A stretch of 64,000 bases of DNA from Isosphaeraceae bacterium EP7 (lineage in GTDB: Bacteria; Planctomycetota; Planctomycetia; Isosphaerales; Isosphaeraceae). The notes under the pieces are model-generated. The model saw only the letters and a list, made by a program, of their open reading frames with translations, made no database searches and was not told the origin of the DNA. Where the stretch lies: positions 806,001 through 870,000 of the forward strand of contig CP151667.1 in the NCBI GenBank assembly GCA_038400315.1, given 5' to 3'. Of this stretch, positions 7,833 to 21,367 are shown piece after piece. Numbering within the stretch: position 1 is the stretch's first letter; each line of letters opens with the position of its first letter. Position numbers and translations under genes: made by a program.

Positions 7833-8288
7833 ATGGCCGACCCAGAACAGACGACCGAGCCAAGCCCGAAATTCGACTTTGACGCCTATCCCCCGGATAG
7901 CGTCTTTCACGAGCGGCGCGACGGCTCGGCAAAATTACTCGACGGGCTGCCCATCTCCGAACTACGGCCCAAGCCCCCGCGCCACGAACGCAAGGAACGG
8001 CGACGGCGGATCGACCCGACCACGTTCGAGAAGCAGTACACCAACGACGAGCTCGAATTCATGACCGCCATGCAGCGGTTCAAGGTTCAGAGCGGCAAGG
8101 CCTTCCCCACCTACGGCGAGGTTCTCCGGGTGGTGTACGCCCTCGGCTATCGCCGGATTGACTCGCACGGCGATCCGAACGACTCCCTCTCCGCAGTCGG
8201 CGACCCCGGCCCGGACGACGAGATCGGCAAGGTCAGCGTCACCAACCCCCTCTCCTGCCCCCTGCCCTTCGTCCGCCTGGCGGAGTGA
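7833..8288 (+). CDS. conserved hypothetical protein
   Basis: It has 151 residues, is soluble and charged, and has no signal peptide. The first 80 residues are Pro/Arg-rich and probably disordered. The second half contains a compact helical segment (DELEFMTAMQRFKVQSGK, then TYGEVLRVVYALGYRR) that looks like a small folded domain. I do not recognise the family. The gene stands alone and faces the 8417-8959 gene, with a shared terminator hairpin between them. Confidence 0.75.
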   Translation: MADPEQTTEPSPKFDFDAYPPDSVFHERRDGSAKLLDGLPISELRPKPPRHERKERRRRIDPTTFEKQYTNDELEFMTAMQRFKVQSGKAFPTYGEVLRVVYALGYRRIDSHGDPNDSLSAVGDPGPDDEIGKVSVTNPLSCPLPFVRLAE

Positions 8289-8329
8289 CACACGCCGGCG
8301 GATCCCGCCTGTCCTGTTCGAAACAAACA

Positions 8330-8365
8330 CACGGGGCCGGCCTCGATGTTGAGGCCGGCCCCGTG
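8330..8365. terminator. bidirectional terminator between convergent genes
   Basis: A perfect 15-bp stem (CACGGGGCCGGCCTC / GAGGCCGGCCCCGTG) with a 6-base loop (GATGTT). On the minus strand it is followed by a T-rich GTGTTTGTTTCG, a good fit for termination of the 8417-8959 gene. On the plus strand the tail is less T-rich. Confidence 0.85.
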
Positions 8366-8416
8366 CTGTCTTGCTCGCCTGACTGACGGGCCTGCGATCG
8401 CCCGTGCTGGCCGGAT

Positions 8417-8959
8417 TCAGCGGCTCATCGAGGCCATCTGCGGGGCCGGCTCGAAGACCCGCGTCCAGGCCCCCATCGCCTCGCGAGTCAGCCGGATGGC
8501 CAGGTCAATCCGCGATCCGCGTGTCGCCTCCGGAGTATCGGGCTTGGCGTCGGCGATGACCTCGACGGCGGCTGGTGCCGGCGTGGGCTCCGGAGTGATC
8601 GGGGCAACCAGTTCCGGCAGCCCCGTCGCGGCGGCCAGGAGATCGGTCGCCTCGGCCGGCAGGACGACGTCGGCGACCGGGGCCGGCGGGTTGGCGAAGG
8701 TCGAAGCCATCTGGTCGACGATCGCATCGAAGGCCCAGTCCGGATTCTCGGTCGGGGCCTGGACTAGCTCGGGGGTCGCCGCCTCGGGGGCGGCCGGCTC
8801 GAAGGCCAGCTCGCCGGCGGGCATCATGGAGTCGACCCGTGCGATCGCCTCCTGGATCCAGGCGTGGCCCCTGGCCGCCATCTCGTCCCAGTCGCGGGCC
8901 GACGGCAGGTTGAGCCCCATGGCACTGACCACACCGACCAGGATCAGTCGCAGCAACAT
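8417..8959 (-). CDS. hypothetical protein with N-terminal hydrophobic segment
   Basis: It has 180 residues. The start at 8959 is supported by GGAGGA about 9 bases upstream; an upstream ATG at 9076 lacks this. The N-terminus (MLLRLILVGVVSAMGLNLPSA) is a signal peptide or single anchor. The remainder is Ala/Pro/Glu-rich, with a possible helix (WDEMAARGHAWIQEAIARVD) and a final helix (IDLAIRLTREAMGAWTRVF). I do not recognise a family; an envelope location is inferred from the hydrophobic start. Confidence 0.65.
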   Translation of the reverse strand: MLLRLILVGVVSAMGLNLPSARDWDEMAARGHAWIQEAIARVDSMMPAGELAFEPAAPEAATPELVQAPTENPDWAFDAIVDQMASTFANPPAPVADVVLPAEATDLLAAATGLPELVAPITPEPTPAPAAVEVIADAKPDTPEATRGSRIDLAIRLTREAMGAWTRVFEPAPQMASMSR

Positions 8960-9274
8960 CGGCCTTCCTCCGGCAGTCTCCGAGGGACCGGCGCCGTCGC
9001 GGATCGCGACACCACCCTCGCTCAGACCGCTCGACCTTCGACTGGAACTCAACTCGCCGCCCCACATGTTAAACAAGATCGACCAGGTGGTCTCCGCTCT
9101 TTAGGGGCTTAGGGAGAAATAGGGAAAAGAATGCTGGTAGGTTGACCCTGTGCTTCGCGGAGGGGTGTCTGACGTTTCGCGTTGATCGGCCTGGGTAAAA
9201 CCGTAGGATGGCGGCGACATGGATGGCCAGCCGGCGGGGGCCTGCCCCGCCCGAAGTCAGAGGGGATGAAGGCG

Positions 9275-10258
9275 ATGGGCAAGCGGGTCCTGGTCACCGG
9301 CGCGGGCGGATTCATCGGCAGCCACCTCGTCGAGCGGCTGGTCGCCGATGGCCACGAGGTCAGGGCCCTGGTCCGCTACAACGGCCGCGACGACCTGGGC
9401 CAGGTCGACCGCCTTCCGGCCGAGATTCGCGAGGCCGTCGAGGTCCATCGGGGCGACCTGAAGGACCCTGAGGCGGTGCGCAAGGCGATCAAGGGGCGAG
9501 AGCGGGTCTACCACCTGGGCGCCCTGATCGCGATCCCGTACTCGTATCAGAACCCGCTCGACGTGGTGCAGACCAACGCGGTGGGAACCTGCCACGTCCT
9601 GGACTCCGCCCGCGACAGCGACTCGATCGAGCGGGTGGTGCTGACGTCGACGTCGGAAGTCTACGGGACAGCCCAGTTCGTTCCGATCACCGAGCAGCAT
9701 CCGTTGCGTGGCCAGTCCCCCTATGCCGCGTCGAAGATTGCGTCGGACGCGCTCGGGGAGAGCTACCATCGATCGTTCGGGCTGCCGGTGACGACGCTGA
9801 GGCCGTTCAACACCTTCGGGCCTCGCCAGTCGGCACGCGCGATCATCCCGACGATCATCAGCCAGGCGCTGGCCCTGGATCGGGTGAAGCTGGGGAGCCT
9901 GGACCCGAGGCGCGACCTGACTTATGTCAAGGACACCGCCGCCGGGTTCGCCGCGATCGCCGAATGCGATGCCGCGATCGGCCGGGTCGTGAATATCGGC
10001 CGAGGTGACGACCTGACCATCGGCGAGCTTGTCGAGCGCATTGCCAGGCTGATTGGCAAGCCGATTCACGTCGAGGCCGACCCCGCCCGCATCCGCCCCG
10101 CCGCCAGCGAAGTCGGCAGGCTCCTCGCGGGTACCGCGCTGGCGACCGAGCTGTTCGGCTGGTCGCCGAAGTACACGCTCGACGAAGGCCTGGCCGAGAC
10201 GATCGGATGGGTCCGCGCCAACCTGAATCTCTTCCGGACGGGCGAGTACACGACCTGA
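9275..10258 (+). CDS. NAD-dependent sugar-nucleotide epimerase/dehydratase (extended SDR)
   Basis: Cytosolic extended short-chain dehydrogenase acting on a nucleotide sugar. It has 327 residues. The NAD-binding GAGGFIGSHLVERL is near the N-terminus, the catalytic Thr/Ser region is VVLTSTSEVYGTA and YxxxK is YAASK. HLGALIAIPYSYQNP and RDLTYVKDTAAGF resemble the LegB/UDP-sugar 4,6-dehydratase branch. The start at 9275 is preceded by AGAGGGG at a spacing of 9; an ATG at 9266 would abut that motif. No partner aminotransferase or glycosyltransferase is adjacent, so the substrate cannot be named. Confidence 0.88.
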   Translation: MGKRVLVTGAGGFIGSHLVERLVADGHEVRALVRYNGRDDLGQVDRLPAEIREAVEVHRGDLKDPEAVRKAIKGRERVYHLGALIAIPYSYQNPLDVVQTNAVGTCHVLDSARDSDSIERVVLTSTSEVYGTAQFVPITEQHPLRGQSPYAASKIASDALGESYHRSFGLPVTTLRPFNTFGPRQSARAIIPTIISQALALDRVKLGSLDPRRDLTYVKDTAAGFAAIAECDAAIGRVVNIGRGDDLTIGELVERIARLIGKPIHVEADPARIRPAASEVGRLLAGTALATELFGWSPKYTLDEGLAETIGWVRANLNLFRTGEYTT

Positions 10259-10396
10259 ATCCGACCGATGGTTAGGTTGAGGGCTGGGCGGAGCCGGATC
10301 CCTGGATTGCGTGGGTGCGTCGCGGGCGGCTAGGATTGGCACGTCCGGACTCCCGGCCCTGCCTTGCCCCGTTGCGCCCTGGATTTGCCCATCCCC

Positions 10397-11395
10397 ATGA
10401 GCATCGACTGGACCCCTCTGGCCCGCCTGATTGATAAATATGACCGATTCGTGGTGACGACCCATGTCCGCCCGGACGGCGATGCGCTGGGGTCGGCCTC
10501 GGGGATGGCCGGCCTGCTGAGGCAGAAGGGGAAGGACGTCCGCGTCGTCAATTCGAGCAAGACGCCGCCTCGCTACGACTACCTCGACCCCGACGGCACG
10601 CTGTTCGAGCACTGGGGGACGCAGGTGCATGCGGCCGACCTGGCCGACCGCGAAGTCCTGGTGATCCTCGACCTGTCGGCCTGGAGCCAGCTCGGCGAAT
10701 TCGCCCCCTGGGTGAGGGAGTTCGGCGGCACCCGCGTGGTGATCGATCACCACGTGAGCCAGGATGACCTGGGGGCCATCTTCCTGAAGGACACGACGGC
10801 CGAGGCGACCGGCACCCTGGTCGCCCGCGCGATCCGGGCGCTGCACGGGACGTTCACGCCGGAGATCTCGACGGCCCTGCTGACGGCGATCGCCATGGAC
10901 ACGGGGTGGTTCCACCACCCGTCGACCACGCCCGAGACCTTCCGGACGGCGGCCGACCTGCAAGAGTCGAAGGCCGACGTCAACAAGATCTACCGCGACC
11001 TGTTCGAGCGTAATACGCTGGGTCGCCTGCGTTTGACCGGTGTCGCCCTGTCTCGCCTCAAGCTGACGGGCGATGGCAAGGTGGCCTCAACGTATGTGAC
11101 CCGGAAAGACTTCGAGGAGACCGGCGCGATTCCGGCGGACACCGAGGACATCATCGATTACACGGTGAGCCTGGCGGGCATCGAGGCGGGTCTCCTCCTG
11201 ATTGAGCAGCCCCGGGGTGGGATCAAGGCGAGCTTCCGGTCGCGCGGAAAGCTCGACTGTTCGAAGCTTGCGGCCCAGTTCGGCGGAGGTGGCCATCGCG
11301 CCGCGGCGGGAGCCGGCCTGCCCGACCCTCTGGAGGAAACGATGCCCCTCGTGCTGGCCGCGGTGGAGAAGGCGACGGCCGAGGCCCGCGGCTGA
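10397..11395 (+). CDS. nrnA: DHH-family phosphoesterase, NrnA-like oligoribonuclease/pAp phosphatase
   Basis: Degrades very short RNA and may dephosphorylate 3'-phosphoadenosine-5'-phosphate in the cytosol. It has 332 residues. The DHH domain shows VTTHVRPDGDALGSASG, LVILDLSAWSQLG and VIDHHVSQDD, which supply the Mn ligands. The DHHA1 domain ends in AAQFGGGGHRAAAGAGL. The ATG at 10397 begins MSIDWTPLARLI; an in-frame TTG upstream adds nothing family-like. It precedes the Rieske gene by about 210 bases with a hairpin between, so it is probably a separate unit. Confidence 0.9.
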   Translation: MSIDWTPLARLIDKYDRFVVTTHVRPDGDALGSASGMAGLLRQKGKDVRVVNSSKTPPRYDYLDPDGTLFEHWGTQVHAADLADREVLVILDLSAWSQLGEFAPWVREFGGTRVVIDHHVSQDDLGAIFLKDTTAEATGTLVARAIRALHGTFTPEISTALLTAIAMDTGWFHHPSTTPETFRTAADLQESKADVNKIYRDLFERNTLGRLRLTGVALSRLKLTGDGKVASTYVTRKDFEETGAIPADTEDIIDYTVSLAGIEAGLLLIEQPRGGIKASFRSRGKLDCSKLAAQFGGGGHRAAAGAGLPDPLEETMPLVLAAVEKATAEARG

Positions 11396-11448
11396 CCCTT
11401 GCTGCGCGAGGCCTCCTGGTCTAATGATAGAGTGATACAGAAACACGG

Positions 11449-11476
11449 CCCGCCCGCGCATCACGTCGCGGGCGGG
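11449..11476 (+). terminator. hairpin between nrnA and the Rieske gene
   Basis: A perfect 10-bp inverted repeat (CCCGCCCGCG / CGCGGGCGGG) with an 8-base loop, about 55 bases after the nrnA stop. No U-run follows, so it may be a terminator or a leader structure ahead of the Rieske-cytochrome b operon. Confidence 0.4.
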
Positions 11477-11605
11477 AACGATCGGACCCGCCCCGAGCCC
11501 CCCGAGAGGGGCCCCTGCCGCATCTTCGCACCCCCGAGCTAGCCTTGCCGGCCCGCTCGCCGCATGCCGGGCCCGGCCCTCTCCCCCTTTGCCGAGGGAT
11601 CCTCG

Positions 11606-12133
11606 ATGTTGACTCGCCGAGACTTCTATCGCGCCGGCTCGGTTGCGCTGGGGAGCCTGATGGGGCTCGTCCTGGCCGTCCCGGGCGCCGCGTATCTTCT
11701 CGACCCCCTGCGCAGGAAGGCGGGAGGGGTGACTTCTTACCCGCTCGCCAGGCTCTCCGACTTGCCCGTGGGTGTCCCGCGTGCGTTTGCGATCGTCGAC
11801 GAACGCAAGGACGCCTGGGTCACGTATCCGAAGCGGCCGATCGGCACGGTCTGGCTGGTGCGCCGACCCGAGGGGTCGGAGACTCCCGTCGTGGCCTACC
11901 AGGCGGAATGCCCGCACCTGGGCTGCGTGATCGGCGCCGACCATGGCGGAACGTCGTTCCGCTGCCCCTGCCACGGGGCGACCTTCGCGATCGACGGGTC
12001 TTCGACGAACGGGGTGTCGCCCCGGTCTATGGATTACCTCGAGGTCGAGGTTCTCAGCGATGCGAACTCAACGGTCAGCGTCAGGTACCAGAGGTTCCGA
12101 CCCCAGGCCACGAAGAGGCTCCCTCTTGCGTAA
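11606..12133 (+). CDS. Rieske [2Fe-2S] protein of a cytochrome bc complex
   Basis: High-potential electron acceptor from quinol in a bc-type complex. It has 175 residues. The N-terminus MLTRRDFYRAGSVALG has a twin-arginine-like motif followed by a hydrophobic anchor (LMGLVLAVPGAAYLL), as in Tat-exported Rieske proteins. Cluster-binding boxes are CPHLGC and CPCHG, giving two Cys and two His. Its 3' end overlaps the cytochrome b gene by 8 bases, implying coupled translation and one complex. Confidence 0.93.
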   Translation: MLTRRDFYRAGSVALGSLMGLVLAVPGAAYLLDPLRRKAGGVTSYPLARLSDLPVGVPRAFAIVDERKDAWVTYPKRPIGTVWLVRRPEGSETPVVAYQAECPHLGCVIGADHGGTSFRCPCHGATFAIDGSSTNGVSPRSMDYLEVEVLSDANSTVSVRYQRFRPQATKRLPLA

Positions 12134-13961
12134 GCAACTTGCCGCCTGGATGGAAGATCGGACCGGCGTCCCGTCGCTGCTCCGCCGTCTGGTCCACACC
12201 CCGATCCCGGTGGGCTCGACCCGCCGCCACGCCCTGAAGGCCGCGCTCCTGGCCCTGTTCGGGGTCCAGGCCGTCACCGGCCTGCTCTTGATGTGCGACT
12301 ACAGCCCGTCGAGCACGACGGCCTGGGGGAGCGTCTTCTACCTGAACAACCAGGTGCAACTCGGCTGGTTCGTGCGCGGACTGCACCGATTCGGCACCAC
12401 CGGGATGATCGCCCTGGTCCTGCTGGCCCTGCTCCAGACGGTCGCCAGCGGCCTGTACCGGGCCCCTCGCGAGGTGGGCTGGTGGCTGCTCCTGGCGTTG
12501 CTCCCCCTGACGATGGGGTTGGGCCTGACCGGGAACATGCTCCCCTGGGACCAGCGAGGGTTCTGGGCCGCCACGGTCGAGACCTCGATTGCCGGCGGCG
12601 TGCCCCTGATCGGGCCTCAGCTCCGTTCGTTGATCCTCGGCGGCCACGAGCCGGGCAACCTGTCACTGACGAGGGTCTATGCCCTCCACGTCCTGGTCTT
12701 GCCGCTGCTGTTCGTCGCCGTGATGGTGGCCCGCACGGCCCTGGCCGCCCGTCGGGGTCACGCATCGACCGACCCGACCGAGCCTTACTGGCCGAAGCAG
12801 GCTTTCTATGACGCGAGCTGCGGTGCCGTTGCATTGGGGCTGTTGACGCTGGGCGTGATCATCGCCGGCGGGGCTCCGCTGGACGCGCCGGGAGACCCGA
12901 CGAGCACCAACTACCCGGCGCGACCGGAGTGGTACGTCTTCTGGCTGAACCGCCTGCTGCACAAACTGCCCACGGGCTATGAAGTGCTCGGCACGGTGGT
13001 GATCCCCGGGGCGCTGGGAGCCTTCCTGATGGCCCTGCCGTTCCTGGACCGGCTGATGCCGCGAAGGTTTGCGCACGCAGGGTCCTGCATCCTGATCTTC
13101 GCCCTCACGGGCCAGGCGGCCTACCTCACGTTCGAGGCGATGCGCGACGACGCGCGAAACCCCGAATACTCGAAAGCCCACCAGGCCGCGAGAGAAGCCG
13201 CAACGCGAGCCACCCAGCTCGCAGAGCTCGCGGGCATCCCCCCGGGAGGCGCCGGCGACCTGCTTCGAACCGATCCCCTGTCCGCGGGGCTCTCCCTGGT
13301 TCGATCCCGCTGCCTCGGATGTCACGCCTTTCAAGGCGAGACGCAGGTTGTGGATGCCAGCCCCTTCAAGGCGTTCGACCTGGCCCACTTCGGCTCTCAT
13401 GACTGGATCGGTGAGTTGCTCGACGACCCGAAGGGCCCGAAGTTCGCGCTTCGAGCTCCCAAGTCGCTCGGCTCGAAGGAGTTCTCCAACGCCTCGCTCG
13501 ACGGCATGAAGCAGTGGAAGGAAGAAATCGACTTCGCCGACCGGGGCGAACGTGACGCCGTGGTTGCCTTCGTCGCGACGTTCCCGACCATTCCGCCCGG
13601 CACAACGGCCGAGGAATGGGCGAGTCGGCCTGAGGTCAAGGAGGATCCGGGCTACGCCCCGTTCGTCGAGAATTGCCTATCCTGCCACTCCATCGGCACG
13701 CTCGACCTGGGCCTCCCCGGCTCGACCCGTCCCGCTCCCGATCTCTTCGCCTACGGCTCCGCCCGCTGGCTAACGACGATCATCAAGAATCCCGGGACGA
13801 AGGGGTTCTACAGCTACCTGAAACCCCACGAGCAGATGCCCGGCTTTGGCGAACAGCTCAGCCCGAACGAGCTCGACCTGATCGTCCGGCTCTTGCGAGA
13901 CGAATACGTCGGGGCCAAACCCCGCGCAGCCAGAACTCCGCGGGAGCAAGCCGCGGAGTAG
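12126..13961 (+). CDS. cytochrome b fused to a diheme cytochrome c, lacking ligands for one b heme
   Basis: Quinol-oxidising membrane subunit of a bc complex, 611 residues from TTG at 12126 (AGAGG 7 bases upstream; ATG at 12150 is the alternative). The b/b6-like part has helix B RGLHRFG (H87), LPWDQRGFW, helix D YALHVLVLPLL (H188) and the Qo-site PEWY at about 267-270. By ungapped comparison with cytochrome b6, the second ligand of helix B is A101 and that of helix D is R203, so the n-side/bH heme has neither His. The C-terminal domain carries two c-type heme sites, CLGCH (about 396-400) and CLSCH (about 517-521). The b-c fusion replaces a separate cytochrome c1. Confidence 0.9.
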   Translation: MRKQLAAWMEDRTGVPSLLRRLVHTPIPVGSTRRHALKAALLALFGVQAVTGLLLMCDYSPSSTTAWGSVFYLNNQVQLGWFVRGLHRFGTTGMIALVLLALLQTVASGLYRAPREVGWWLLLALLPLTMGLGLTGNMLPWDQRGFWAATVETSIAGGVPLIGPQLRSLILGGHEPGNLSLTRVYALHVLVLPLLFVAVMVARTALAARRGHASTDPTEPYWPKQAFYDASCGAVALGLLTLGVIIAGGAPLDAPGDPTSTNYPARPEWYVFWLNRLLHKLPTGYEVLGTVVIPGALGAFLMALPFLDRLMPRRFAHAGSCILIFALTGQAAYLTFEAMRDDARNPEYSKAHQAAREAATRATQLAELAGIPPGGAGDLLRTDPLSAGLSLVRSRCLGCHAFQGETQVVDASPFKAFDLAHFGSHDWIGELLDDPKGPKFALRAPKSLGSKEFSNASLDGMKQWKEEIDFADRGERDAVVAFVATFPTIPPGTTAEEWASRPEVKEDPGYAPFVENCLSCHSIGTLDLGLPGSTRPAPDLFAYGSARWLTTIIKNPGTKGFYSYLKPHEQMPGFGEQLSPNELDLIVRLLRDEYVGAKPRAARTPREQAAE

Positions 13962-13966
13962 GTTCC

Positions 13967-14974
13967 TCAGCTCGCTCGCTTGACAACGTACTGGGCGAGC
14001 GAGCGGAGGATCGCCTTGGAAGGCGAGTCAGGGAGGACTTCGAGCCGCTGAACGGCCTGAGACGAACATTGCTTGGCTCGTTCCCAGGCATAGGCCAGCG
14101 CGCCGCTCGACTCCAGCAGGGGGCGTAGCTCGTCCCTCCCCTCGGGCTTGGCATCGACCAGGATCTGACGCACCCGGGCCGCGACGGCGGGTGGGGCGGT
14201 GGAGAGCAGGCGGATGATCGGCAGGGTGAGCTTCTGCTTCTCCAGGTCGGTGCCAAGGCTCTTGCCGGTTGCCTGCTCGTCGCCCCAGATATCGAGGACG
14301 TCGTCGGCGATCTGGAAGGCGACACCCAGGTCTCGACCGTAGGCGTCGAGGGCGTCGACCGTCGCGGCGGGTGCGCCCGCGTAATGTGCCCCCAGCCGGC
14401 AGCAGACGGCCGTCAGCTCGGCGGTCTTGCCGCGGATGATCTCGAAGTAATCGGCCTCGGAGAGGTCGAAATTCCCCCTGCTGTGCACCTGCTGAAGCTC
14501 GCCTTCGCAGACCATGTTGGTCGCGCGGCCGATCCAGCGGCAGGCCAGGGTCGACTCCAGCGACGCGGCCAGGTGGAACGCGTGCGTGAAGAGGTAGTCT
14601 CCCATCAGGACGGCGGCCTCGGCGCCCCAGGCGGCGTTGATCGTCGCGGCATGGCGGCGCACCATCGATTCATCGAGGATGTCGTCGTGCACGAGGGTCG
14701 CCGTGTGGATCATCTCGACCACCGCGGCCAGCACCGGGTGCGACGCATTCGAGCCGCCGCAGGCCTTGCCGGTCAGCAAGACCAGGGCGGGGCGCAGCCG
14801 CTTCCCCTGGAAGTCGGCGCATTGGTCGACCAACTCGCGGACGAAGGCGAACTGGCTTCCCAGTTCGGCCTCGTAAATTCGCCCGGCCTCGGCCAGCTCG
14901 CCCGAGATCGGGGCGTAGACCGAGGCGAGTCTTCGCCGGCTTTCTTCGGGCCTGGGCAGCGTCAGAGCGGACAT
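13967..14974 (-). CDS. polyprenyl diphosphate synthase (trans-isoprenyl)
   Basis: Condenses isopentenyl diphosphate units to make the polyprenyl tail of quinones or a related long-chain prenyl diphosphate. It has 335 residues. The first Asp-rich motif is VHDDILDES and the second is FQIADDVLDIWGDEQ; GKRLRPALVLL and LMGDYLFTHAF are also typical. The ATG at 14974 starts MSALTLPRPEESRRRL; a frame to 15016 adds only an unlikely leader. It ends 5 bases from the convergent cytochrome b gene. An IspB-like role in menaquinone synthesis fits this neighbourhood but is inferred. Confidence 0.88.
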   Translation of the reverse strand: MSALTLPRPEESRRRLASVYAPISGELAEAGRIYEAELGSQFAFVRELVDQCADFQGKRLRPALVLLTGKACGGSNASHPVLAAVVEMIHTATLVHDDILDESMVRRHAATINAAWGAEAAVLMGDYLFTHAFHLAASLESTLACRWIGRATNMVCEGELQQVHSRGNFDLSEADYFEIIRGKTAELTAVCCRLGAHYAGAPAATVDALDAYGRDLGVAFQIADDVLDIWGDEQATGKSLGTDLEKQKLTLPIIRLLSTAPPAVAARVRQILVDAKPEGRDELRPLLESSGALAYAWERAKQCSSQAVQRLEVLPDSPSKAILRSLAQYVVKRAS

Positions 14975-15028
14975 CCCACGCCTCCGGTTGCAATCCGACG
15001 GCCGAGCATCGACCATCTACGCCAGCGA

Positions 15029-15514
15029 TCAGGCGAGATCTTCGGGGCGACGATAATCGCCGCTCCGCCCGCCCGACTTCTCTTCCAGCCGCACGCAGTC
15101 GATCGACATTGATCGATCGACTGCCTTGCACATATCGTAGACCGTCAGCGCCGCAAGGCTAACGGCGGTCAGGGCTTCCATCTCGACGCCCGTCCGTCCG
15201 GTTGTCCGGGCGGTGGCCTCGATCCGGAGCGTCCGATCGTCTTGCACCGAAAATCCGACCTCGACGGCGTCGAGGCCGAGTGGGTGGCAGAGCGGGATCA
15301 GGTCGCCGGTCCGCTTGGCCGCCATGATGCCGGCCAGACGGGCGACGCCGAGCACGTCACCCTTCGACAGGCCGCGGTCGAGGATCAGGGCCAGCGTCGA
15401 CGGCTCCATCCGCACCAGGCCGCTGGCGCGTGCCCGTCGGGTGGTCGTCGGCTTGGCCGAAACATCCACCATCCGGCTCGCGCCCTGCTCATCGAAATGC
15501 GTCAGCTCGGCCAT
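15029..15514 (-). CDS. moaC: cyclic pyranopterin monophosphate synthase (MoaC)
   Basis: Makes cyclic pyranopterin monophosphate in molybdenum-cofactor synthesis. It has 161 residues. [43 protein letters not shown] and the C-terminal [13 protein letters not shown] are all characteristic. The ATG at 15514 fits the family N-terminus; a GTG at 15532 is a weaker option. No other moa gene is in the window. The coding sequence contains a 12-bp palindrome at 15095-15124. Confidence 0.95.
15095..15124. repeat. 12-bp inverted repeat inside moaC
   Basis: GCAGTCGATCGA and TCGATCGACTGC form a perfect inverted repeat with a 6-base spacer (CATTGA). It contains several CGATCG/GATC steps and lies within the coding sequence for the [10 protein letters not shown] segment. 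Confidence 0.7.
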
Positions 15515-15547
15515 CGACCGACTTGCACTCACCTGGAAGAGATCGAT

Positions 15548-15574
15548 CGTTCAATTCGTTCTGAACGTATTCTA
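15548..15574 (-). promoter_or_regulatory. possible moaC promoter/operator
   Basis: The 91-base gap between moaC and the GT39 gene is unusually AT-rich for the window. On the minus strand it has TAGAAT (15569-15574), a fair -10 box, and a palindrome CGTTCA-N8-TGAACG (15548-15567) just downstream of it, in an operator-like place. No good -35 box is visible. Confidence 0.35.
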
Positions 15575-15605
15575 CAATTCACCCGCCGCATGGCCAGGGG
15601 AGGGT

Positions 15606-17177
15606 CTAAGGTTTTCGGATCCTGAGCACTCTCGACAGGACGACCCCCTGCTTCGAACGCTCGGCGACGAGGCCTACCGGGGGGGGGCCGTTGAGCAAGG
15701 CCCGCCACTCCGGATTGAGGTAGGCATCGCGTCGATACAGAATCAGCCAATCGGCTTGCGCCGCCCGCGACTGGTCGACGATGGTCACCTGGTTTCGGAC
15801 CAGAGCAGGGGTCAGGGAGGCGACTCCCTGGATGTGATGGAGTGTGGGGGCCAGCGCCGCCAGGTCGCCCGGTTTCGCCTCGGCCGCCAGTCGATCCAGC
15901 AAGACGCGGTCGACCGCGTCCCCCCAATAGGTCAATTCCAGGCCCAGTCGCTGGGCGCCGGGCAACCCGCCGACGAGTGCATTGTAATAGCTGAGCCCGA
16001 ACGGGTGCAGCGCCACGACCCCGTACCCTTGAGCCAGGAACGCTGCCGCCATCAGGCCGTGGGCCCAACGGCGACTCGTTCGACCCCAGGCCCAGGCCCC
16101 GCCGATCCCGATCAGGATCGCCCAGAGCGGGAAAACGAGGAGGAACAGACGCTCGCCGTCGTAGACCGGGATGCGTGTGCTAAAAAGCCCCAGAAACAGG
16201 CCAATTCCTGCCAGCGCGAGCCAGGGTAAGCCCTCCGACTTTCGTCTGCCTCGGACGACCTCGATGGCTCCCAGGACGCCCAGCAGGTGAAGGCCCACCG
16301 GAACCGTGATGGCGAAATAGACCCAGGGGTAGTGCCAGGGAACGTCGCGATCCGCGTAGAACTGGCCGAAGTACTGAACCTGTAACGATAATCGCTCGGT
16401 TCCGGTTCCCAGATAACGGCCGAGACGGGTCAGGGTGTCGTGCCAGAGCCAGGGCCAGCCCAGCAGGAACGTGCCGAGACCGACGACGAGCCATCCTCCG
16501 AACGCGCCGACGGCATGACGCCAGGGGAAGCGAACGAGGAGCAAGCCCAGCACGATTGGTGGGAGGAACCAGGCGTGAATCTTGGTCAGAAGGGCCAGGC
16601 CCAAGACCAGCCCCGCAAACGCCATAGCCCGAGTCGGCTTCGATGACCTTGATCCCCGCTCGGCCGCGAGCAAGGCCGCAACCCAGAACAACGCGATAAA
16701 CGTATCCAGAGCACCGAGATGCGCGTGGGCGAACGCACGCGGCATGAAGAGCAATGCCCCCCCCGCCGCAATGCCGCCGACCTGCCCCCGGAGTCGACCC
16801 GTGGCAAGCGTGACCAGAGTAATAAGCAAGCCGAAGCAGGCGGCCGGTGCAACTCTGGCGGGGATCACCGCATAGGGATCGGTCCAGCCGATCGCCGCGG
16901 CAAACGGTTCGAAGGTTGTCGATGCAACTCCAAGAAGCCAACGGCCTAACGGTGGATGTTCGGCGTTGTCGGCGAAGACCCGATCGATGGTCTCGCGCTG
17001 GAAGAAGCCGGCCTTCTGCTTCAGGAGTGTCGAGACGTAAGTTCGTCCGGGTCGGACATCCAGGGGCTCGTCGATCGTGATGCCGGGGTCGGCCAGCGTG
17101 AAGACGACCGCGAGGAACGCGAAGAGGCCGAGGGCCAACGCCGTACGGCCGAGTCTCGGAGTGTGGTCGGTGGACAT
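15606..17177 (-). CDS. GT39/ArnT-like membrane glycosyltransferase
   Basis: Integral membrane transferase of the dolichyl-phosphate-mannose protein mannosyltransferase superfamily. It would use a polyprenyl-phosphate sugar to glycosylate lipid or protein on the outer face. It has 523 residues and about 10-12 hydrophobic segments. The early TIDEPLDV loop supplies the acidic pair usual for the catalytic base, and AEHPPLGRWLLG and FAHAHLGALDTFIALFWV are superfamily-like. It follows recN by 3 bases, so they are probably co-transcribed although functionally unrelated. The acceptor is unknown. Confidence 0.82.
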   Translation of the reverse strand: MSTDHTPRLGRTALALGLFAFLAVVFTLADPGITIDEPLDVRPGRTYVSTLLKQKAGFFQRETIDRVFADNAEHPPLGRWLLGVASTTFEPFAAAIGWTDPYAVIPARVAPAACFGLLITLVTLATGRLRGQVGGIAAGGALLFMPRAFAHAHLGALDTFIALFWVAALLAAERGSRSSKPTRAMAFAGLVLGLALLTKIHAWFLPPIVLGLLLVRFPWRHAVGAFGGWLVVGLGTFLLGWPWLWHDTLTRLGRYLGTGTERLSLQVQYFGQFYADRDVPWHYPWVYFAITVPVGLHLLGVLGAIEVVRGRRKSEGLPWLALAGIGLFLGLFSTRIPVYDGERLFLLVFPLWAILIGIGGAWAWGRTSRRWAHGLMAAAFLAQGYGVVALHPFGLSYYNALVGGLPGAQRLGLELTYWGDAVDRVLLDRLAAEAKPGDLAALAPTLHHIQGVASLTPALVRNQVTIVDQSRAAQADWLILYRRDAYLNPEWRALLNGPPPVGLVAERSKQGVVLSRVLRIRKP

Positions 17178-17180
17178 CGG

Positions 17181-18878
17181 TCAGGCCCCCGCCCGCGCCT
17201 CGACGAGCATCGCGCGGGCCTCCTGACGGGTTCCTTCAGCGGCGGACTCACCGCGGAGCATCTGGGCAAGTTCCTCGACACGCTCGGTTTCGTCGAGCGG
17301 TTCAATCGTCGTCCGTGTCCGCCCCTTCTCGACCACCTTGCGGATGGCCCATTGATGGCCGGCGAAGCTGGCCATCTGCGGGAGATGGGTCACGCAGATG
17401 ATCTGATGGTGATGAGAGAGGTCGGCAAGTGTCCTGCCCAGGGCCGAGCCGAGCCGGCCGCCGACGCCGGTGTCGATCTCGTCGAAGACGAGGGTCGGGA
17501 CGCGATCCACGCCGGCCAGCGTGGCCTTGATGGCCAGGGTGACGCGCGACAATTCGCCGCCAGAGGCAATCTTGCGCAGCGGCTTCGGCTCCTCGCCGAG
17601 GTTGGGGGCGAAGAGGAATTCGACCCGGTCGGGGCCCCACTCGGGCGGCGGAGTCTCGGTAGGGTCGTCGGGCATGGGGTCGGTGGTGACTTCGACGCTG
17701 ACGCGGGCTTCGGGCATGTGAAGCGTTTTCAGCCTCGATTGCACGGCCTTGGCGAACGCACCGGCGGCCTTGCGTCGCGCGGTGCTCAGCTCGGCGGCGG
17801 CCTGTCGAAGCTCGGCCCAGGCCGCCGAGAGTGGAGCATCGAGGGCTTCGAGGTTGGCCTCTTCCCGGTCGATCGCGTCGAGCCGGGCTTGCGCCGAGGC
17901 GTGCCGGGCGGCGAGTTCGTCGGGCTTGCAGCCGAATCGGGCGGCGAGCCTGCGATAGGTGGCAAGCCGCGTCTCAATCTCTTCGAGTCGGGTCGGGTCC
18001 TCATCGAAGTCGCGCCCGAGACGGCGCAAGGCGTAAGCGATCTCGCGGGTCGACTCGGCCAGGCGTTCAAGTTCGCCGGCCGCATCGGCCAGCTCGGGCG
18101 CGGCGTCTCCGAGGGGTTCCAGCAGGCGGGCGACCTCTTCGAGCAGCCCCTGGGCCGACGGCTCGGCCTCGTAGAGCAGGCGATAGCCACGCTGGGCGGC
18201 GTCGCGCAACCGGCCGACGGAGCCCAGGCGATGGGCCAGGCGGGTCTGCTCGTCGAACTCGTCGGGCTCGGGGCAGAAGGCGTGCAACTCGTCGCGTTCG
18301 AAGGCGACGAGGGCCCGCTCGCGCCTGCGGTCGTCGGCCGCCCTGAGCAGGTCGAGGCGCTGACGCCGGAGGTCGGCATGGGCCTGACGGAGCTTGCGGA
18401 AGCGATCGGCGCGGGGGCCGAGCCCTGCGTGGGCGTCGAGCCAGGCCCGCTGGCGATCGGGGTCGAGGAGCGCACGCCCTTCGTTCTGGCCGTGGATGTC
18501 GACGAGGATCTCGCCCAGGGACCGCAGGGTGGAGACGGGGACCGGGAGGCCGTTGGCATGGGCTGACCCCCTGCCCTGCGCCGAGACTCGCCGCGTGACG
18601 ATGAGCGTCTCGTCCTCGAGCGGCCCGCCGAGGATCGCCTCGACGCGGGCGCGGGTTTCGGGCTCGGGGATCTCGAAGACGGCGGCGGCTCGGGCCTCAT
18701 CGCAGCCGGATCGGACCAGGTCGGCCGACGCCTTGCCGCCGAGCACCAGCGAGAGCGCCGTCAGGAGCAGGCTCTTGCCGGCGCCGGTCTCACCGGTCCA
18801 GGCGCAATAGCCCGCCCGGAGGTCGATGCGCACGTCCTCGATCAGCGCCAGGTTCTGCACCGAGAGCTCGCGGAGCAC
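17181..18878 (-). CDS. recN: DNA repair protein RecN
   Basis: SMC-like ATPase of double-strand-break repair. It has 565 residues, the usual RecN size. The start is GTG, reading LRELSVQNLALIEDV, followed by Walker A TGETGAGKS. The coiled-coil arm spans about 150-350. The C-terminal ATPase half has SGGELSRVTLAIKA (signature) and TLVFDEIDTGVGGRLG (Walker B). The GT39 gene follows after 3 bases. Confidence 0.95.
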   Translation of the reverse strand: MLRELSVQNLALIEDVRIDLRAGYCAWTGETGAGKSLLLTALSLVLGGKASADLVRSGCDEARAAAVFEIPEPETRARVEAILGGPLEDETLIVTRRVSAQGRGSAHANGLPVPVSTLRSLGEILVDIHGQNEGRALLDPDRQRAWLDAHAGLGPRADRFRKLRQAHADLRRQRLDLLRAADDRRRERALVAFERDELHAFCPEPDEFDEQTRLAHRLGSVGRLRDAAQRGYRLLYEAEPSAQGLLEEVARLLEPLGDAAPELADAAGELERLAESTREIAYALRRLGRDFDEDPTRLEEIETRLATYRRLAARFGCKPDELAARHASAQARLDAIDREEANLEALDAPLSAAWAELRQAAAELSTARRKAAGAFAKAVQSRLKTLHMPEARVSVEVTTDPMPDDPTETPPPEWGPDRVEFLFAPNLGEEPKPLRKIASGGELSRVTLAIKATLAGVDRVPTLVFDEIDTGVGGRLGSALGRTLADLSHHHQIICVTHLPQMASFAGHQWAIRKVVEKGRTRTTIEPLDETERVEELAQMLRGESAAEGTRQEARAMLVEARAGA

Positions 18879-19013
18879 GAGGCCGGGTCCTCCATTGATG
18901 AGTCATGCTCGCGGGGATCGGCCCCGTCGAGGCGAGTTCCGGGTGGGTCTGGCCGCGCCGCCAGGTCGTGCGTTCGCGGCGCGGTCGAGGGGGCCAGATC
19001 GGGCCGAGGCGCG

Positions 19014-19772
19014 TCAATCCTTCTTCAAGCCTAGTTCGCGGGCGTGGAACTTGATCGCTTCCTGGACATGCTCATCCCAGTAGGCCCAGTTGTGGGTCCC
19101 GGGGAATTCTTCGTACTCGTGCGCGATCTTCATCTCGTCGAGCTTCTTGTGCAGGGCCCGGTTCTGCTCGATGAGGAAGTCTTCCTTACCGCAGTCGATC
19201 CGCAACGCGGGGAGGCGGCCGTGGTCGACCTTCTCGACGAGGGCGAAGATGTCCTCGTCGCCGCCGGCCGAGTCGGTACCGAAGATCCGTGCGAACTCGC
19301 CTTTCAGCTTGGAGCCCGCCCCCTGCTTGCCGCTGGTGAACCCCAGGGCCCCGGAATGGGAGTTGGCGCTGGCGAACAGCTCGTGGTGCTTGATCCCGAC
19401 CTTGAGCGCGCCATAACCACCCATCGAGAGGCCGCCGATGCAGCGCCCGGATCGCTCGGCCTTCACCGGGAAGGTGCGGTCGACCAGGCCGACGATGTCC
19501 TTGACGAGGTCGTCCTCGTAGGCGTACCCCTCCTTGGCATTGGAGTACCACCCACGGCCGCCGTCGGGCATCACGACCATCAGCGGAAGATTGCCGATGT
19601 ACCGCTCGACGCTGGTTCGACGCGACCAGATCGTATGGTCGTCAGAAAGCCCGTGGAGCAGGTAGAACACCGACCAGGGGGCCTTGATGGCCGGGTCGTC
19701 GGGGAAGATCACGCTGAAGGAAGAGGCTTTCTGGAGCGACTTGCTGTGGTAGTTGATCGTGGCGAAGGCCAT
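19014..19772 (-). CDS. esterase of the EstD/S-formylglutathione hydrolase type
   Basis: Alpha/beta-hydrolase of the putative-esterase (PF00756-like) group. It has 252 residues from ATG 19772. WSVFYLLHGLSDDHTIW forms the oxyanion strand, GGLSMGGYGALK holds the nucleophile Ser and GTHNWAYWDEHV holds the catalytic His. No signal peptide is seen from this start, so it is probably cytosolic. The substrate is not determined by sequence. It lies between recN and the methyltransferase on the same strand. Confidence 0.85.
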   Translation of the reverse strand: MAFATINYHSKSLQKASSFSVIFPDDPAIKAPWSVFYLLHGLSDDHTIWSRRTSVERYIGNLPLMVVMPDGGRGWYSNAKEGYAYEDDLVKDIVGLVDRTFPVKAERSGRCIGGLSMGGYGALKVGIKHHELFASANSHSGALGFTSGKQGAGSKLKGEFARIFGTDSAGGDEDIFALVEKVDHGRLPALRIDCGKEDFLIEQNRALHKKLDEMKIAHEYEEFPGTHNWAYWDEHVQEAIKFHARELGLKKD

Positions 19773-19810
19773 CGTCGCACCTCGGGTGGTGTGGTCGGCT
19801 CGGGCGTTGA

Positions 19811-21367
19811 TCAGATCAAGGGGGAGGCCGGCATCGGTGTCCCGTCGAGCAGCAGGTCGCCCCAAGAATCAGGGTGGCCGATGTCCGGGTCAACACCCAA
19901 CCGCCTCAGCTCGCCGTCCATGGCGATGCCCAGGAGAAGGGGGTCGGTCGCCCTAAGCAGGGCGATCGGGTCGATCTGGCGAAGGACCGCCTTGGTGATC
20001 GGCCGCTTCGCGTCCCAGAAGACGAGGGCGTCGAGCAGGTCGCGGGCGATCGGGCCGTTGAGGAGCGACGCTAGTAACGCCGCCTGGACGGCCGACCGGC
20101 ACGGGAGCAGGTAGCAGGTGTCGTCGAAGACCGCGGGACGGCCGTCGACCGGCCCGATCGCCCGGAATCTCGGGCTCTTGTGCAGGCCGCTGATGGCGAC
20201 CTTGAAGGGGTCGAAGCAGTACGGCCCGACGCCGAAGAGCGAGAAGCGGGGCCGGCCTCGATAGATCGACGACTTGCGCCGATCGAAGGCCCAGGCGTGG
20301 TCGTCGAGGTAGGCCCAGAGCCTGGGTGAGCTCTGCTTGTGGGCCTCGGTCTCTTCGCCCAGCCGGCTTTGGCTGAGGACGAGGGCCCGTCGCGGGCGGC
20401 CGTCGACCCCGTGAAACAGGTCGGTCGATTTCCAGAGCGGGAGCATGTGGTCAGGCTCGATGTCGACGGGCTCACCCAGGCCGTTGATCCAGCCTTCGCC
20501 GGAGCCGACAAGCTCCATCACCTTGGCGGCGTCGTGCTTGATCCCCTGCCGCCAGGTGAGCGGGCTGCCACCGGCGGCGAACTTCGATCGGCCCCAGGCC
20601 TCGGCGTCGGCGATCAATTGATCCCCGTCGCGTTCGAAATGCCGCACCGAGGCTTCGGCATCAAGGCCGCCGTGGATCGCGACCCGGACGGGACCATCGG
20701 GGACGCCGACGTCGATCCTGAGCAGGCAGGCGTCAACCTGCACGCCGAACCAGCGGCGGGCGTCGATCCGGTGAATCGACGCCTCCTTGATCTGGACGCC
20801 ATGCGGGAGGGCGCCCTGGGCCAGGATCTTGCGGGCGACGGAGCGTTTGCAGAGCAAGGCGATGGTCGGGTTCTGGGGAGCGAGCTCGGTGAGGAGCTTG
20901 ATCCAGACGGCCTCGGCCAGGTCGAAATTCGACGAGCCGGTCAGCGCGTCGAGCCCTCGCCGCCGGTCGCCTCGAAGGCGTGGGGCCTGATTCTGGCTCT
21001 CTAGCACGCCCAGCTCGGCGGCGGTCACCCAGGGAGGGTTGCCCACCACGAGCAGCGGTCCCTCGTCGGTCCAGGGGAGGTCTCGCGCCAGGTCGACGGT
21101 GAACAGGTCGGCCTCGGTCAGCACGACCCGGGGGGCATCGGGGCGGTCGCAGGCACGATGCGCCTCGGCCAGATGCACGGCCTGGCGCTCGATGCCGATC
21201 AGTTCGCGCGGCGGATCGGGCCTGTCGAGCAACGCGGCAAGGAAGTGGCCTTTGCCGCAGGTCGGCTCCAGGACCCTGGTCCAGCGTGAGCCGATCGGCC
21301 CGAGGAGGTCGAGCACGCGGGCGGCCAGGTTGGGGGGAGTTTGGAAGTCGCCCAGATCCCGGCGCAC
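19811..21367 (-). CDS. solitary adenine-type DNA methyltransferase
   Basis: SAM-dependent N6-adenine-type DNA methyltransferase. It has 518 residues from a GTG at 21367 with GGAAGGGG upstream. Motif X is DFQTPP at about 7-12, motif I is EPTCGKGHF at about 34-42 and motif IV is NPPW at 110-113. The C-terminal half (from about 250) is the likely target-recognition region, with FDDTCYLLPC and LASLLNGPIARDLL as in TaqI/Eco57I-like enzymes. No nuclease domain is recognisable and no restriction gene is adjacent, so an orphan methylase or a nuclease-less relative of a type II/IIG enzyme is inferred. Confidence 0.82.
   Translation of the reverse strand: MRRDLGDFQTPPNLAARVLDLLGPIGSRWTRVLEPTCGKGHFLAALLDRPDPPRELIGIERQAVHLAEAHRACDRPDAPRVVLTEADLFTVDLARDLPWTDEGPLLVVGNPPWVTAAELGVLESQNQAPRLRGDRRRGLDALTGSSNFDLAEAVWIKLLTELAPQNPTIALLCKRSVARKILAQGALPHGVQIKEASIHRIDARRWFGVQVDACLLRIDVGVPDGPVRVAIHGGLDAEASVRHFERDGDQLIADAEAWGRSKFAAGGSPLTWRQGIKHDAAKVMELVGSGEGWINGLGEPVDIEPDHMLPLWKSTDLFHGVDGRPRRALVLSQSRLGEETEAHKQSSPRLWAYLDDHAWAFDRRKSSIYRGRPRFSLFGVGPYCFDPFKVAISGLHKSPRFRAIGPVDGRPAVFDDTCYLLPCRSAVQAALLASLLNGPIARDLLDALVFWDAKRPITKAVLRQIDPIALLRATDPLLLGIAMDGELRRLGVDPDIGHPDSWGDLLLDGTPMPASPLI

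Follow-up and report, generated by a model that had tools for sequence, protein, structure and literature searches.

In accounts of complex III and the Q-cycle, the pair of b hemes in cytochrome b is treated as an invariable core. The described systems that we compared with the locus studied here are the cytochrome b6f complex, the bc1 and bcc complexes of Rhodobacter capsulatus and Actinobacteria and, within the Planctomycetota, the Rieske/cytochrome b complexes of the anammox bacterium Kuenenia. The latter were proposed to work without a normal Q-cycle and are described, in the accessible part of the source, with both hemes bP and bN and with high-potential Rieske proteins that keep the serine after the CPCHx motif (PMC12954380). 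Fusion of cytochrome b to cytochrome c is known in Planctomycetes and Bradyrhizobiaceae, and the accessible text of that report holds nothing on missing heme ligands (PMC4013037). In the engineered R. capsulatus mutant H212N, heme bL is kept and heme bH is lost, according to the accessible part of its description (PMC4330944). Here we describe a cytochrome b-c fusion protein of Isosphaeraceae bacterium EP7 that very probably lacks heme bH naturally. Its gene lies in a 64,000-nucleotide stretch of the 7.2-Mb source genome (contig CP151667.1, positions 806,001 to 870,000), hereafter the window. All features below are on the forward strand of the window: a Rieske iron-sulfur protein of 175 amino acids (11606..12133; Pfam PF00355, E 1.3e-8; motifs CPHLGC and CPCH) and a 611-amino-acid fusion of a cytochrome b6/subunit IV-like part with a diheme cytochrome c (12126..13961; Pfam PF00033, PF13631, PF13442 and PF00034), the window protein.

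The window protein keeps both ligands of one b heme and neither ligand of the other. H87 in helix B (codon 12384..12386) and H188 in helix D (12687..12689) align with the ligands of heme bp/bL, both by phmmer against solved b6 chains, which are its closest solved relatives by sequence, and by MAFFT against the b6 segment of 6rqf; both are His in 166/166 rows of the large tree set. The positions of the heme bn/bH ligands are occupied by A101 (12426..12428) and R203 (12732..12734) in the b6 alignments and in the family alignment, so that of the two His pairs of the Q-cycle only the bL pair is present. On the bH side two helix glycines are also replaced, by K38 in helix A (12237..12239; alignment A2, with 51 proteins, has Gly here almost throughout, as do the other five proteins that share the loss) and by L122 in helix C (12489..12491). 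The quinol-oxidation (Qo) motifs LPWDQ (residues 139-143) and PEWY (267-270; 12924..12935) are intact. The original prediction had read this ligand pattern and these motifs from the DNA alone; both readings held, and alignment with the b/b6 families and with planctomycete relatives upheld the ligand loss.

Structure prediction, which the original prediction had proposed as a check, indicates that the cytochrome b fold is kept. An AlphaFold2 model built from 51 aligned proteins (mean predicted local distance difference test score, pLDDT, 84.6; predicted template modelling score, pTM, 0.82) matched bc1 cytochrome b over residues 1-346, with Z 27.2 for R. capsulatus 1zrt_C (339 residues, 3.6 Å), 28.6 for 9gy6_N and 25.6-28.6 among the 50 structure entries listed. 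A scan of positions 1-335 for a replacement ligand (any His, Cys, Met, Lys or Tyr present in two or more of the six proteins with the double loss) found nothing specific to all six; His 35, close to where helix A begins on the N side, occurs in five of the six and also in three proteins with all four ligands. From sequence, the loss of heme bH is strongly supported.

Membership in the Rieske/cytochrome b superfamily is evident from the b6/bc1-homologous core, a Rieske partner with two Cys and two His, and PW(D/G)Q and PEWY motifs. With cytochrome b6f the window protein shares its best sequence matches, a helix D ligand spacing of 15, PWDQ, PEWY and the Rieske partner; it differs in having no bH ligands and in joining b6, subunit IV and a diheme cytochrome c in one chain. 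In b6f, a Cys at the start of helix A attaches heme cn covalently; neither the window protein nor the aligned fused relatives have Cys in that column, and a few relatives (for example, L017) have one a single residue later. With the bc1 and bcc complexes it shares the fold, the Qo motifs and the Rieske partner, and differs in the missing bH site and at the positions of R. capsulatus Y147, M154 and Y302. The two CxxCH motifs of the diheme domain, at residues 396-400 (13311..13325) and 517-521 (13674..13688), are invariant in A2, and the model of actinobacterial diheme QcrC picks up two relatives (L003, L011), with scores much lower than its cut-off.

The loss recurs. Among 45 Isosphaeraceae genomes searched (family f1), 42 gave a fused protein row, 41 of them readable at all four ligand positions: 35 have four His and six, including the window protein, lack both bH His (hereafter bH-less). 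The residues at 101/203, numbered as in the window protein, are A/R in the window, F/Y in L011 and L016, Y/F in L015, V/T in L013 and Y/Q in L025. A wider set of 110 further loci comprised 30 of family f2 and the best 80 loci from named records (Planctomycetota, Verrucomicrobia, Myxococcales and others, some being f1 genomes again); those 80 came from a collection scan with an alignment query, a single-protein query having given no match. Four His were found in 102 of these loci, five loci were incomplete and three duplicated L011, L016 and L013, so that 102/105 complete rows had all four ligands. In a second family, f7, the search covered 61 genomes and gave a match in 53; none of the 40 proteins read, in two batches of 20, has four His. 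Both bH ligands are lost in 14/40, as Y/W (eight), Y/R (two), W/R, Q/R, F/R and S/W, and one is lost in the other 26, with Tyr at 101 in 23, Thr at 101 in one and a change at 203 in two. The bL His pair is intact in all 40 and residue 137 is always Asp; 38 are without the helix C glycine, and the 40 form one clade (Shimodaira-Hasegawa-like approximate likelihood ratio test, SH-aLRT, 100). A separate pattern was seen in genus g27 (L213-L228), in which bH position 101 is Gln in 4/16 proteins and His in 12/16, and all 16 have Asn at 137 and Ser at 122.

Because five other f1 genomes and 14 f7 genomes show the double loss with different residues, a sequencing slip does not account for it, as had originally been argued from a single sequence; no point in favour of a sequencing or assembly artefact was found, and we regard one as extremely improbable. 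The same replacements bear on whether the bH site might hold a heme or other cofactor through unusual ligands, leaving transmembrane electron flow and a modified Q-cycle in place. Tyr and His form a heme ligand pair in other proteins, 23/40 f7 proteins combine Tyr 101 with His 203, and His 35 is found in five of the six bH-less f1 proteins. The doubly lost pairs, however, share nothing and include A/R, V/T and S/W, His 35 also accompanies four His in three rows, and the bH-side glycine positions of the window protein are Lys and Leu. A cofactor of this kind, which the original prediction had raised, thus finds no support in the window protein, where replacement pairs that differ by lineage and the two altered glycine positions tell against it, and we consider it unlikely.

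How often the bH site was lost depends on the part of the locus that is followed. In a quick tree of 166 proteins, the character 'both lost' versus 'not' requires at least seven changes. When the two ligand columns were removed, the six bH-less f1 proteins fell in three places: the window protein beside the four-His protein L003; L011, L015 and L016 in an open fork with the four-His proteins L007 and L029; and L013 and L025 beside the four-His protein L014. A single clade of all six was rejected (approximately unbiased (AU) test, p 0.00014), and a clade of the window protein with L011, L015 and L016 was not (AU p 0.278). The cytochrome b part alone joins the window protein to those three (SH-aLRT 91; 93 in a larger tree), whereas the cytochrome c part (91) and the Rieske tree (86) place it with L003/G018. 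In a tree built from the epimerase and DHH phosphoesterase proteins encoded next to the complex, the window genome took no resolved place, bH-less G031 joined four-His G019 (100/99), a member of the same genus, and bH-less G027 and G035 joined four-His G013 (100/100). Since the conflict between the b part and the c part and Rieske trees makes convergence indistinguishable from transfer of the b part, the sequence comparisons indicate two or three losses of bH within the Isosphaeraceae.

The original prediction had held that everything outside the bH ligands is preserved, and this proved wrong: Qo-site positions 137, 144, 275 and 279, position 88 and a Rieske serine differ from those of most relatives. 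By offsets from the 1zrt_C match, positions 137, 144, 268 and 275 correspond to R. capsulatus Y147, M154, E295 and Y302, all of which stand in the Qo-site model given in the accessible part of PMC10583091. We compared the six bH-less proteins, in the order window, L011, L016, L015, L013 and L025, with 140 distinct four-His proteins. Position 137 (N137; 12534..12536) is Tyr in 137/140 four-His rows and N,N,N,N,H,H in the six; position 144, which follows PWDQ (PWDQ with R144, 12543..12557), is Lys in 139/140 and R,R,R,R,E,E; and position 275 (N275; 12948..12950) is Phe or Tyr in 140/140 and N,N,N,N,F,F. Similarly, position 122 is Gly in 140/140 and L,A,A,A,G,G, position 279 is Lys in 120/140 and H,H,H,H,R,R, and position 88, next to a bL ligand, is His in 132/140 and R,R,R,R,Y,Y. 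L013 and L025 have PDWY instead of PEWY. Over conserved positions the bH-less six are changed in 70/138 N-side and 74/216 P-side cells, compared with averages of 11% and 9% in four-His rows; the division of each of the four helices into an N-side and a P-side half was our own, and the Fisher tests, which ignore relatedness, were not used as proof. Departures in the Qo motifs also occur elsewhere in these families: the long-branched four-His f1 member L029 (G003) has LVWDQ for LPWDQ and PAWF for PEWY, and two paralogues of the fused cytochrome b-c occur together in several f2 genomes (for example, L288 and L293 in G120, and L291 and L304 in G121), one paralogue clade having Asn at 137 and four His, mostly without PWDQ.

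The Rieske partner is altered as well. We take C102, H104, C120 and H123 to be its cluster ligands and C107/C122 its disulfide, assigned by motif; A125 (11978..11980) stands, by sequence comparison, at the place of the potential-raising Ser of CPCHxS. This Ser hydrogen-bonds the cluster, and in yeast the potential drops by 130 mV without it, according to the accessible part of PMC12954380. It is replaced by Ala in four of the six bH-less f1 genomes (window, G024, G007 and G031) and retained in G027 and G035, and it is present in 20/20 four-His rows. A motif search at 22 f7 loci found 19 Rieske proteins, 18 with Ala and one irregular (L254); beside the cytochromes b of L244, L247 and L259 the search found none. 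The pairing of a Rieske gene with a cytochrome b-c gene is kept.

What remains at the locus (the bL ligands, PWDQ, PEWY, the Rieske ligands and the two heme c sites), what is gone from it (the bH ligands and, in some lineages, a bH-side glycine) and the differing Qo and Rieske residues form the basis of the mechanism we propose. By known bc1 chemistry, a complex without heme bH has no route from bL to the quinone-reduction (Qi) site, so that electrons would have no way through the membrane and quinone would not be reduced on the Qi side. Menaquinol would still be oxidised at the Qo site, its first electron passing to the Rieske cluster and its second either waiting on heme bL or following in a second stroke; an altered Qo site would let the second follow the first, and both would exit on the P side by way of the c hemes. 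Two protons per quinol would be released on the P side with no charge moved through the protein, giving about half the proton yield of the Q-cycle, and the second half-reaction would not be held back by the membrane potential. Because quinol oxidation would not be forced to send an electron across the membrane, a lower-potential Rieske protein would suffice, and the Ser-to-Ala changes fit the absence of any need for a high-potential one. We judge the whole of this linear route, with no heme bH, no Q-cycle and both electrons exiting on the P side via the Rieske protein and c hemes, to be moderately probable; the sequence supports the earlier inference that a normal Q-cycle does not operate. The window complex differs from H212N in being natural, in having lost both ligands and in its additional Qo and Rieske changes, and from the anammox complexes in the loss of bH and in carrying Ala at the Rieske Ser.

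Several observations weigh against the linear route or against its link to the loss of bH. In the bH knockout, bL was reduced and the marked antimycin-sensitive phase was missing, as the accessible part of the paper has it (PMC4330944); this mutant is not a working enzyme, from which we infer that a productive linear route needs changes in the Qo site. Tyr 137 is also missing in 23/65 four-His rows of the set that included the second f7 batch and in 12/12 four-His g27 proteins, and the many four-His rows without it led us to drop the change at 137 as specific to bH loss. Position 122 is Ser in four-His g27 and, in the same later sampling, Phe in L334. A phylogenetic pair test of bH loss against change at Y137 or G122 had three independent pairs and was not significant. 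The third bH-less lineage (L013 and L025) retains both the Rieske Ser and the helix C glycine; only 4/19 of the f7 Rieske proteins found are paired with doubly lost proteins (three Ala, one irregular); and 4/24 four-His loci carry Ala at the Rieske Ser (L282, L283, L284 and L290), with Ser in the other 20. Lastly, 24/40 f7 proteins pair Tyr, or in one case Thr, at 101 with a kept H203, and some of these might bind a modified heme.

A different fate for the second electron would be transfer from bL to another P-side partner, with bifurcation continuing towards another acceptor, which the original prediction had also put forward. Retention of bL, the Qo motifs and the Rieske ligands would suit such a scheme, and the anammox complexes have been proposed, in the accessible part of PMC12954380, to divert the low-potential electron, but via bN and on the opposite side of the membrane. 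The window genes tested between 7833 and 19865 offer no candidate redox partner, however, and a lower-potential Rieske protein would supply a weaker driving force towards a strongly reducing bL, provided that the symmetry set out in the accessible text of PMC12954380 holds. We therefore regard transfer to another partner as improbable, and the linear route is retained as the preferred reading.

It could also be that the window protein is a decaying duplicate whose work is done by a four-His complex elsewhere in the genome. Another Rieske/cytochrome b complex is indeed encoded in the source genome, having all four His as well as the Cys for heme cn (CMGG). This complex (L070:8677-14870; contig C1, near 4,514,676) has KAPWYF/APWYF at the place of PEWY in its subunit IV-like part, followed by a 1189-amino-acid protein with cytochrome c domains, and it has strong matches (at least 84% identity) in 27/45 f1 genomes. 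The branch of the window protein is long (1.37, compared with 0.36 for its nearest relative, L003). Ratios of nonsynonymous to synonymous substitution (dN/dS; Nei-Gojobori 1986 method, NG86) within bH-less clades were 0.22 (L011/L016), 0.25 (L013/L025) and 0.34 (L011/L015), compared with 0.23 for a four-His pair of like divergence (L030/L034) and a lower 0.07-0.20 for other four-His pairs. The long branch and the lower ratios of those other pairs, which count against the linear route too, make relaxed constraint possible; the sequence data thus point to constraint that persists in bH-less proteins and is perhaps somewhat relaxed. Against decay stand open frames, the other cofactor sites kept, dN/dS well below 1 in bH-less pairs, the kept pairing of Rieske and cytochrome b-c genes, the parallel Rieske change and an altered site in 40/40 f7 proteins read. 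No match to the second complex was found in the bH-less drafts G007, G024, G027 and G035 (74-89% complete), nor in the 98% complete four-His relative G013. We think decay an unlikely explanation. Genes of NrfD type and COX1 type were present in 12/12 genomes tested, so that quinol has other outlets.

The cytochrome b-c gene is an open frame whose TTG start, at 12126, overlaps the Rieske stop and which ends at 13961; the membrane part spans residues ~1-345 and the diheme cytochrome c follows. Around it, the genes at 7833-19865 encode a sugar epimerase, a DHH phosphoesterase, the Rieske protein, a polyprenyl synthetase, MoaC, a PMT_2-family protein, a RecN/SMC-type protein, an esterase and two open reading frames without a Pfam match. 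In most of 34 compared loci a DHH phosphoesterase gene stands upstream of the Rieske/cytochrome b-c pair, frequently preceded in turn by a gene for a sugar epimerase. This order is present in the bH-less window, G031, G027 and G035. It is missing in bH-less G024 (L084, with neither gene on its 10-kb contig) and G007 (L087, with the DHH gene apart), and also in G020 and L043. Fused proteins of other architectures and labels were seen as well: some from f7 (L041, L244-L248) are open frames of 875-976 amino acids with four CxxCH motifs rather than two, and three records titled as Candidatus Kuenenia stuttgartiensis metagenome-assembled genomes (L148, L149 and L166) carry an Isosphaeraceae-like fused gene 38-39% identical to that of the window, under names that may be wrong.

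In the open-licence literature, judged from titles and abstract openings among the matches listed, we found no naturally occurring cytochrome b described as lacking heme bH. As far as this search reaches, what is new is that the bH site has been lost, that this has recurred and that Rieske and Qo differences accompany it; the superfamily, the fold and the b-c fusion were already known. More generally, it is about an even call whether one-heme-b, or 'de-bifurcated', Rieske/cytochrome b complexes have been built repeatedly, by deletion of bH and retuning of the Qo site and Rieske protein, as linear quinol:cytochrome c reductases in a complex III fold, and separately in at least two bacterial families, one of which (f7) has no intact bH site in any of the 40 proteins read. 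Natural complexes that dropped a heme more than once, and that differ at the Qo site and often at the Rieske cluster as well, would be evolution's version of the knockout experiments performed on electron bifurcation. They would let one ask which residues split the two electrons of quinol and which send both one way, a matter debated for decades.

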